Shown here piece by piece: positions 47,057 through 48,914 of a stretch of 64,000 nucleotides of DNA. Origin of the DNA: Ahrensia sp. GTDB lineage: Bacteria; Pseudomonadota; Alphaproteobacteria; Rhizobiales; Rhizobiaceae. Position 1 is the first letter of the stretch. The number at the start of each line of letters is the position of its first letter. The notes under the pieces are model-generated. The model saw nothing but the letters and a program-made list of their open reading frames with translations, was not told the DNA's origin and did no database searches. Both the position numbers and the translations under genes were made by a program. Location: NCBI GenBank assembly GCA_028817895.1, contig JAPPOQ010000043.1:1-64000 (forward strand), read 5' to 3'.

Positions 47057-47857
47057 ATGCTCTATCTGCGATCATTTGCATTCAACCTCGCGTGGTATCT
47101 CAATCTCATCGTCCAGATGGTGGTGCAATCGCCCTATTATTTTGCGGCGAGTAAGCCCGGCTATCTGGGAGTTGTCCGCCGCTGGGCCTGGAGCTGCCAT
47201 TGGCTTCAGCGTGCTCTGGCGGGCACGAAAATCGAGATCTCCGGGCTGGAAAACGTGCCCGAGGGCGGTTGCATCATCGCCTCCAAACACCAATCGATCT
47301 GGGAGTTCTATGCGCTGTTTGCCGAGCTGGATGATCCGGCTTTCGTGTTGAAGGATGACCTTTTGAAGATACCCTTGTTCGGGTGGTATGTCGCCAAGGC
47401 CGATCAGATACCCATAAGGCGTGGCGACAAGGGCAAAGCGCTGCGTCACATGCTCAAAAGGGCTGGTGAAGCCTTGGCAGATGGGCGGCAGATCCTGATC
47501 TTTCCAGAAGGAACACGCAAGGCACCGGGTGCAGAGCCGGACTATCGATACGGCGTCACGCGCATGTATGTTGAACTGGATTGTCCCGTTGTTCCCGTCG
47601 CGCTTGATTCTGGCCTGTTTTGGCCGAGGCGGCAGTTTCTGCGCTATCCCGGCATATTGCGTGCGCAATTTCTCAAGCCCATCAAGCCGGGGTTGGACGC
47701 AGAAGCGTTCTCGGCCCGTTTGCAAAAAAGCATCGAAGATGCCTGTGATGACCTCTATGCGCAGACAGTGCATGACCCCATCGTGCCGCCGCTTTCCGAC
47801 AAGGTGCGCGCCGCTATCGAGCGCTCAAAGGCACGACGGCATGTGGAAAAATCATGA
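47057..47857 (+). CDS. plsC: 1-acyl-sn-glycerol-3-phosphate acyltransferase
   Basis: A 266-residue inner-membrane enzyme making phosphatidic acid from lysophosphatidic acid. The catalytic HxxxxD block is KHQSIWEF, where Glu takes the Asp place; the family shows both forms. It also has FPEGTRKAPGA (substrate motif III) and IPIRRGDKG. Hydrophobic stretch near residue 5-25. The frame upstream is open to 47003 and overlaps ydcF, but ATG 47057 starts the conserved part. Tandem LexA-type boxes follow after seven bases. Confidence 0.9.
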   Translation: MLYLRSFAFNLAWYLNLIVQMVVQSPYYFAASKPGYLGVVRRWAWSCHWLQRALAGTKIEISGLENVPEGGCIIASKHQSIWEFYALFAELDDPAFVLKDDLLKIPLFGWYVAKADQIPIRRGDKGKALRHMLKRAGEALADGRQILIFPEGTRKAPGAEPDYRYGVTRMYVELDCPVVPVALDSGLFWPRRQFLRYPGILRAQFLKPIKPGLDAEAFSARLQKSIEDACDDLYAQTVHDPIVPPLSDKVRAAIERSKARRHVEKS

Positions 47858-47864
47858 AACGTTT

Positions 47865-47879
47865 GTTCTGGTAATGTTC
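47865..47879 (+). promoter_or_regulatory. LexA-type SOS box 1
   Basis: GTTC-N7-GTTC, exact (GTTC at 47865 and 47876). This is the alphaproteobacterial LexA operator (GAAC-N7-GAAC on the other strand). It lies seven bases after the plsC stop and 45 bases before the ATG at 47925. LexA binding is inferred. Confidence 0.65.
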
Positions 47880-47888
47880 TCTTAACTT

Positions 47889-47903
47889 GTTCCTCCTACG
47901 TTC
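47889..47903 (+). promoter_or_regulatory. LexA-type SOS box 2
   Basis: A second exact GTTC-N7-GTTC (GTTC at 47889 and 47900), nine bases after the first box and 21 bases before ATG 47925. Two perfect boxes in 39 bases are very unlikely by chance and suggest tight SOS repression of the next gene. Confidence 0.65.
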
Positions 47904-47924
47904 TCCCCAAGCATGGAGAGCCCA

Positions 47925-48308
47925 ATGCAACACGATCTTTTCGATAACATCGCTGAAAAAGCGCAGGTTACCGCCTTGCCGGTGACCTCAAATGCGGCCA
48001 GTAAGCCGGTCGCGATCGATCTCACTCCCAGTGCGGTCGGGCAGGTTGGACTTGATGGATACGCGATGGCACTCGCTCGATCTGGCAGACGCTGTGTGTT
48101 TCGACAAACCACCGTCCGCGAGGCGATGTTTTACGATAAGGCGATTTTTGCTGTGACGAACACCAGCACCGGCGAGGTTCTGGCGGGAACCGATGTGTTG
48201 ACGCTGTGGTGCGGTGGCGATGTACACAAAGGAGGCCTGTTCGTCCATCTGCTTGACGCTGATCAGGACGCGTCTCTCATTTTAGCTGATCTGGCGAGCG
48301 GGTTTTGA
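47925..48308 (+). CDS. Unrecognised protein, SOS-box-preceded, with N-terminal clamp-binding-like motif
   Basis: A 127-residue protein not recognised as a known family. ATG 47925 has GGAG six bases upstream; ATG 47913 lacks one. The first residues are MQHDLFDN: QHDLF fits the sliding-clamp (DnaN) binding pentapeptide QL(S/D)LF, and a motif at the extreme N-terminus also occurs in Hda. An Ala/Val/Thr-rich linker follows (residues 12-40), then a compact domain with DGYAMALARSGRRCVFRQTT, TDVLTLWCGGDVHKGG and LFVHLLDADQDASL. There is no signal or membrane segment. Two perfect LexA-type boxes precede it. A DNA-damage-induced, clamp-interacting role is inference. Its 3' end overlaps chaC by 32 bases. 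Confidence 0.75.
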   Translation: MQHDLFDNIAEKAQVTALPVTSNAASKPVAIDLTPSAVGQVGLDGYAMALARSGRRCVFRQTTVREAMFYDKAIFAVTNTSTGEVLAGTDVLTLWCGGDVHKGGLFVHLLDADQDASLILADLASGF

Positions 48309-48828
48309 GTTCGGAAACCACGCGTTCGAGAGCGTGGTCTCGGATGCCCATCTGTTTCATATGATCCACCGTATTGGCGAAATAGGTGATATTGTCTCCG
48401 GACTGGCCTTGCGCCTTTGCGATGCGCTCAACCAGAGCGTCGTGATCCAGCCGCCCGGCATATTGATCGTGATTGCGGCGCACCACGAACACGGTGCAGG
48501 CGACGATCTCGCCGGTGTCGAGTTGAGCAGGGCGTGACGTTTCACGATAGACATTGGTAACCAATTCGCGCTCTCTCAAATAGTCCATCACCCGCGCACG
48601 ATCGTGGTCGGCAACTTTGAAAGCCATGCCACGGCAGGAACCACCCTGGTCCAATCCCAAAACGATGCCGGGATAGTCTTGTGTGCCGCGATGAACCCAG
48701 GAATAGATGCAGGGTGAACGATGTACACCGGACATGCGAGCAGGAACCGCCGCATCGTGCTGAAAACCCGGTTTCCACATCAAGGAACCGTAGCCAAAAA
48801 CCCAAAAATGCTGATCCGGATTGTTCAT
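48277..48828 (-). CDS. ChaC-type gamma-glutamylcyclotransferase
   Basis: A 183-residue enzyme that likely cuts glutathione to 5-oxoproline and Cys-Gly. The substrate-binding VFGYGSLMWKPGF and RGMAFKVADHD motifs, and the conserved acidic region YLRERELVTNVYRE, match ChaC. ATG 48828 begins the domain; the open frame runs to 48900. The DUF2125 gene starts 87 bases away in the other direction. The 3' end overlaps the gene at 47925 by 32 bases. Confidence 0.9.
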   Translation of the reverse strand: MNNPDQHFWVFGYGSLMWKPGFQHDAAVPARMSGVHRSPCIYSWVHRGTQDYPGIVLGLDQGGSCRGMAFKVADHDRARVMDYLRERELVTNVYRETSRPAQLDTGEIVACTVFVVRRNHDQYAGRLDHDALVERIAKAQGQSGDNITYFANTVDHMKQMGIRDHALERVVSELKTRSPDQLK

Positions 48829-48914
48829 GACAACGGGCCTGCAATCGCTCCCTTGTTTTGAAGGAAGCCAGCCCGTAACAAGCACACAAGAACAGCGCAA
48901 CGGTTCCGGCGCTC

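Follow-up and report, generated by a model that had tools for sequence, protein, structure and literature searches.

A small gene at positions 47925 to 48308 (forward strand) of the window, the 64,000-nucleotide stretch of Ahrensia sp. DNA analyzed here, is best explained, and on balance probably correctly, as a LexA-regulon gene that belongs to an old, unnamed family of the Hyphomicrobiales and encodes a small, short-lived effector. LexA control of the gene is very probable, being strongly supported by twin operator boxes at all 12 loci of the genus, by a box at 108 of 136 loci across the order, and by the presence of the same boxes at SOS genes. The alphaproteobacterial LexA regulon is usually described via repair genes that are common to other bacteria. 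An operator-tied gene that occurs in at least 220 of 397 genomes of the order and lacks any family or fold match is a real gap in that picture, and a part of the bacterial damage response that is both old and common may have gone unnoticed.

Two exact matches to GTTC-N7-GTTC precede the gene on the forward strand, box 1 (GTTCTGGTAATGTTC, 47865 to 47879) and box 2 (GTTCCTCCTACGTTC, 47889 to 47903), both where the original prediction had placed them. A likely ribosome-binding site, GGAGA (47915 to 47919), lies 5 nt 5′ of ATG 47925, from which the frame runs to a TGA ending at 48308 and encodes, as had been claimed, 127 residues beginning MQHDLF. An alternative in-frame ATG at 47913 would give 131 aa; alignment supports 47925 as the more plausible start, since the 12 homologous upstream regions share a conserved GGAG and start at 47915 to 47927 (GGAG aligned in 10 of the 12 genus loci). 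The clamp-motif-like peptide QHDLF, in the N-terminal tail, is encoded at 47928 to 47942, and a conserved core, delimited by the genus alignment and by block means of pLDDT, spans codons 42 to 123 (48048 to 48293).

Exact boxes by themselves are no proof of a LexA site, because their counts are near chance in both the window (three matches against 2.1 expected, with 36 of 100 shuffles reaching three) and the genome. A genome-wide scan, suggested with the original prediction as a check, returned 110 sites against 127 for the reversed pattern and hence no enrichment, while it did place recognized SOS genes among the sites. What stands above chance is the tandem pairing together with the conservation of the pair. 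Among 100 listed of the 110 genome sites, the twin boxes are the only pair within 50 bp of each other. When the same 100 are scored with a matrix derived from the family's own order-level promoters, a basis that favors boxes containing a −10, box 1 comes 12th and box 2 comes 30th. Box 2, whose spacer has diverged in the window, is thus a weak variant here. The −35- and −10-like hexamers of the window are degraded relative to the genus pattern, and a promoter scan of the gene's own upstream region found no sigma-70-like site.

Homologues are present in 12 of 15 genus genomes, including the source genome itself (best E value 0.001 or better, bar rounding); of the three without one, two are less complete (77% and 61%) and the third measures 0.9 Mb. 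Conservation of the boxes, another of the proposed checks, was found throughout: all 12 genus loci (L009 to L020) keep the twin arrangement 24 bp apart, with both boxes exact in 11, a single mismatch in box 1 of L018, and the half-sites of box 2 exact in all 12. The box 1 sequence shared by 9 of the 12 loci is GTTCTTGTAATGTTC, with TTGTAA, by eye a possible −35; that of box 2, shared by 8 of the 12, is GTTCTATnTATGTTC, with a −10-like TATnTA inside (also by eye). The genus promoter would thus consist of two boxes laid over TTGTAA-N18-TATnTA, followed by a ribosome-binding site. Twin boxes, here 23 bp apart, also precede the gene at L095, which represents the only other genus of the family Rhizobiaceae in which we found it.

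The genome encodes LexA (PF01726, 3.3e-16), and the box occurs at lexA itself (TIGR00498, reverse orientation) and at radA (TIGR00416), a PA0069 radical SAM gene (NF033668), recN (TIGR00634, just below the cut-off, with a frame that ends at the locus edge), ssb and uvrA (PF00436 and PF17760), a comM-like Mg-chelatase gene (PF01078) whose longest frame begins upstream of the box, and a parE-like gyrase B gene (PF00204). Reverse-oriented boxes stand at two imuA-like genes (NF033429, well below the cut-off), at L070 on contig C38 and L075 on contig C28; at the former the box ends 2 nt before the ATG and a Y-family polymerase-like frame comes next. In the relevant part of PMC12700426, GTTCN7GTTC is given as the Caulobacter LexA consensus, and a single box is ascribed to about 97% of that bacterium's SOS promoters. 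The promoter of the small gene therefore carries the same operator as the alphaproteobacterial LexA regulon, an operator also found here at lexA and several repair genes, and differs in having two tandem boxes 24 bp apart, an arrangement made unusual by the prevalence of single boxes in that excerpt. It differs further in that its product falls in no named family among those searched.

Across the order, a profile built from the 12 genus members matched at least 80 of 397 genomes at an E value of 0.01, and one built from 32 members matched at least 220 of 397 at 0.001 (189 of 341 good-quality genomes; 81 of 142 genera). These counts are lower bounds, since few candidates per genome were scored (11 in the 397-genome search with the 32-member profile). 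At the level of the class, at least 4 of 385 genomes matched, three of the four within the order. Searching the order with the single protein recovered its own genome alone (1 of 199), and a first contig scan for homologues found nothing; a later, alignment-based scan gave nine loci, all already among the genus loci.

We examined 136 order-level loci from the 220 matching genomes, drawn from the better-scoring listed matches, so that weak relatives are undersampled. An exact box lies within 400 bp upstream of the match in 108 of these loci, whereas the reversed pattern does so in 2 of the 136 and a box in the opposite orientation in 11, and 46 of the 52 genera examined have at least one locus with an exact box; an earlier, overlapping count found a box within 300 bp at 27 of 29 loci. 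In a subset of 46 loci out of the 108, spanning 21 genera and 12 families, the end of the box lies 1 to 2 nt 5′ of the ATG, and every locus of the subset has TTG at −35 spacing, 16 to 18 nt upstream of the spacer hexamer of the box. TTGACA is matched there at five or six positions in 36 of 46 loci, against 1 of 46 in a control of one shuffle of the upstream DNA per locus, and the hexamers seen most often in the spacer follow TATnTT and could plausibly serve as a −10. The operator thus clearly overlaps the promoter in these 46 loci. Their mRNAs are probably leaderless, because transcription would start at or near the ATG.

The 28 order-level loci that lack an exact box are distributed by clade: all 13 in f34, all 7 in f2, 3 of 9 in f28 (all from genus g31), 2 of 3 in f13, the single f15 locus, and 2 of 18 in f44. 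Two f42 loci, read separately, and the single relative outside the order also lack it. The original prediction had named homologues devoid of both the N-terminal motif and the boxes as evidence that would count against it; the genus holds none, and they do occur in distant clades (f34, f2, f15, some loci of f28, f13, and f44, and both f42 loci that were read). LexA is nevertheless present in all of the 8 box-less genomes considered, in 7 of which a reverse-oriented box stands no more than about 130 bp 5′ of the lexA match; since lexA mostly still has its box, the operator appears to have been lost or replaced at the small gene and not genome-wide. Upstream regions in f34 (for example, L160 and L177) often show, by eye, a CTTGAC...CCCCTA-like layout, possibly a heat-shock-type or other promoter, that is, a rewired regulation of the same gene.

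The protein has a conserved core with no convincing match in the libraries searched. Invariant residues among the 12 genus members include G42, L43, S53, G54, R56, F59, H108, and D122, and in an alignment of 68 members H95 and D110 (numbering of member L099) are the sole invariant residues; the recognizable features are an SGxRYxF hairpin, a strand reading YVHLL, and a helix at the end that contains DL. AlphaFold2 models the window protein with a pLDDT of 79, with values below 50 at residues 1 to 8 and 11 to 19 and block means of 78 to 94 from residue 41 onward, and models L099 with a core pLDDT of 89 and a pTM of 0.83. That the protein matches nothing recognized, as first noted by inspection, held up: its Pfam and NCBIfam searches were empty and the best PHROG match had an E value of 0.25. 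Pfam searches of 12, 32, and 68 members and NCBIfam and PHROG searches of members returned only single-member matches, all taken as chance, such as PF22039 (1 of 68, 0.0016), PF24170 (1 of 68, 0.004), and TIGR03280 (1 of 68, 0.0039). Sequence searches of the PDB gave a best E value of 0.72, and Foldseek gave no match at 0.001, either for two models against the PDB (best 0.15 and 0.17) or for one model against BFVD (best 0.062). We rejected a relation to ImuA, which rested on one similar strand seen by eye, and also fusion proteins suggested by long open frames, since in the cases read the frame simply extends upstream of the box and start. Literature searches within an open-access library found no title or abstract start describing the family. 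We accordingly rate the family as absent from all libraries searched and rate the gene as one that would be of the LexA-regulated SOS type.

RecN and SulA are short-lived SOS effectors cleared by proteolysis, and the family resembles them in its LexA-type operator and in the C termini of about a third of its order-level members. Ala-Ala ends 46 of 135 order proteins (L186, whose chosen frame is 3 aa, was omitted from the 136), compared with one each of the 94 acyltransferases and 99 ChaC proteins encoded at the same loci (2 of 193 pooled); by genus, the figures are 25 of 51 against 1 of 27 and 1 of 40, respectively. The window protein, in contrast, ends in SGF, none of the 12 genus members ends in Ala-Ala, and no relation to RecN or SulA was found in sequence or fold. 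According to a portion of PMC7652416, the ssrA degron depends above all on its terminal Ala-Ala; this suggests a ClpXP-type degron in these order members, outside the genus of the window.

The other tail bears on an alternative role for the protein, as a sliding-clamp-binding SOS factor whose tail pentapeptide, at the N or the C terminus depending on lineage, docks on DnaN and whose core tunes replication or translesion synthesis; we regard this as unlikely. The original prediction had likened MQHDLF to the DnaN-binding pentapeptide. The peptide is indeed there, in a tail that is probably disordered, a likeness to clamp binders with terminal docking peptides such as Hda and Pol IV, which are named in the part of PMC11139829 drawn on here, but it fails the consensus given in the same part (Q-phi-x-[L/M]-[F/L], with phi aliphatic and position 2 described as tolerant), having His at position 2 where an aliphatic residue is expected. 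Conservation in homologues, which had been proposed as a check, failed to appear: QxxLF is found in just 3 of 12 genus members and is missing from the other 9. Even the relaxed Q..[LM][FL] is confined to the tails of 12 of 147 proteins in 5 genera, a mild enrichment (281 of 5,000 shuffles reach 5 genera) that leaves 135 proteins without it there, and the published hexamer occurs in 0 of 147 proteins; no polymerase or Hda domain was matched either. Clamp association is consequently weak for the window protein and unsupported as a family-defining feature, and we rejected the motif as a definition of the family. Several counts do exceed chance. The published pentamer is present in 7 of 147 proteins in 4 genera (31 of 5,000 shuffles reach 4 genera), although one of the seven, QAGLF in L109, overlaps the core helix at its end. 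Q.[SD]L[FL], a pattern picked after the matches were seen, occurs in 8 proteins in 5 genera (0 of 5,000 shuffles), with reversed-motif controls below expectation (0 and 1 matches). Another pattern picked in the same way, Q[^PG][SDTE]L[FWL], matches 13 of 143 proteins, the remaining four being indivisible into core and tails (the count of 147 used a fallback). Tails in f36 (QIDLF, QVDLF) and f23 (QL[DES]LL) have canonical forms, and a clamp peptide at the N terminus has a precedent in Hda, as given in the cited part of PMC11139829, so that some lineages may indeed dock on the clamp.

A Hyphomicrobiales counterpart of the SOS division inhibitors, one that is small and short-lived and blocks septation in damaged cells, is an explanation that we likewise think improbable. 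SulA, YneA, and SidA are such inhibitors, and these are usually LexA controlled, small, lineage restricted, low in identity, and equipped with a degron-like C terminus. The family fits this description in its LexA-type control, its small size, its confinement to one order, the low identity among its members, and its frequent degron-like C terminus, but none of the Pfam and NCBIfam matches of the 68 members is to an inhibitor family, no membrane segment is seen by eye, no link to FtsZ or FtsW was found, and the gene was not found in most of its own family. Far less credible still is that the gene is an ordinary housekeeping gene whose boxes are due to chance or belong to another regulator, to which we give hardly any weight. 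The lack of genome-wide enrichment and the clades in which the gene lacks an exact box would agree with it, but a box that is kept throughout the genus and at 108 of the 136 order-level loci examined, stands at a fixed position relative to promoter and start codon in 46 of them, and is common to lexA and repair genes argues strongly against it, and the conservation at order level led us to reject pure chance.

Under the preferred reading, a LexA-regulon gene for a short-lived small effector, LexA in an undamaged cell would sit on two tandem operators over the promoter region and keep the gene off. Upon damage, RecA-stimulated cleavage of LexA would release the operators and yield a burst of the small protein, which is probably a short-lived damage-response effector. 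It would consist of a compact, beta-rich core (the SGxRYxF hairpin, the YVHLL strand, and the C-terminal helix) with variable, probably disordered tails, and the core most likely binds a cellular partner rather than catalyzing a reaction. As for the target, our likeliest guess is a replication or cell cycle checkpoint. After repair, the Ala-Ala C terminus found outside the genus of the window would allow ClpXP-like removal of the effector, and in a few lineages a clamp-docking peptide in the tail would direct its action to the replication and repair machinery. SocB of Caulobacter docks on the clamp. Its turnover by ClpXP is described in a section of PMC5422525, and the family would share both traits with it. 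The C-terminal bias and the scattered clamp peptides offer testable mechanisms.

The gene lies between an upstream PlsC-like acyltransferase gene (47057 to 47857, forward strand; PF01553, 7.8e-23), a syntenic neighbor to which we claim no functional tie, and a convergent ChaC-like gene downstream (48277 to 48840, reverse strand; PF04752, 8.3e-41), with which its 3′ end overlaps by about 32 bp (48277 to 48308). Among 148 homologous loci (136 from the order and 12 from the genus, with about 1.5 kb of flank read), a same-strand upstream acyltransferase is present in 94 and a convergent ChaC in 99. Within its own family, the Rhizobiaceae, the gene was found at an E value of 0.01 in 3 of 101 sampled genomes (its own, another of the genus, and one of another genus), the other 98 giving no match. 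The locus is otherwise similar there: among 29 other genera of the family with ChaC, 25 have an acyltransferase close by, no more than 66 bp from the ChaC match in 22 of them, and a profile search of the ChaC flanks found the gene in none of the 29. Three Rhizobiaceae loci, L253, L257, and L259, have 1,057, 608, and 283 bp between acyltransferase and ChaC, with no profile match in that interval. The gene looks like an old orthologue that is cleanly absent from most sampled Rhizobiaceae, and because 98 of the 101 genomes gave no match, its function would appear to be dispensable in the family. These absences provide ready-made comparisons. The Rhizobiaceae are the family of the best-studied rhizobia. 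A bolder reading, tentative and in our estimation more doubtful than not, is that this is a major overlooked SOS effector of the Hyphomicrobiales, with a new small fold, LexA-repressed and often leaderless mRNAs, and clamp and degron tails swapped between lineages, and that it is mostly missing from the Rhizobiaceae; if that were true, its absence from most of them would explain why the family went unnoticed.

The box also adjoins further genes in the Ahrensia sp. genome. On contig C7, a small ORF that looks GIY-YIG-like by eye (L079:1023-1442; no NCBIfam match) adjoins a high-scoring reverse-oriented box, GTTCATGTTTTGTTC, at C7:111061. A 209-aa frame on contig C15 (L078:870-1496), which has no Pfam or NCBIfam match, begins 26 nt after the box GTTCTGCTTTTGTTC at C15:88522 and is a candidate for a second unnamed SOS gene. 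On the same contig, at L076 (C15:98400-101400), the high-scoring box GTTCATTGTTTGTTC at C15:99894 lies 57 nt before a DncV-like cGAS gene (PF21654, 1.6e-24; PF21713, 3.2e-22), which suggests that a CBASS-type defense gene is under SOS control.
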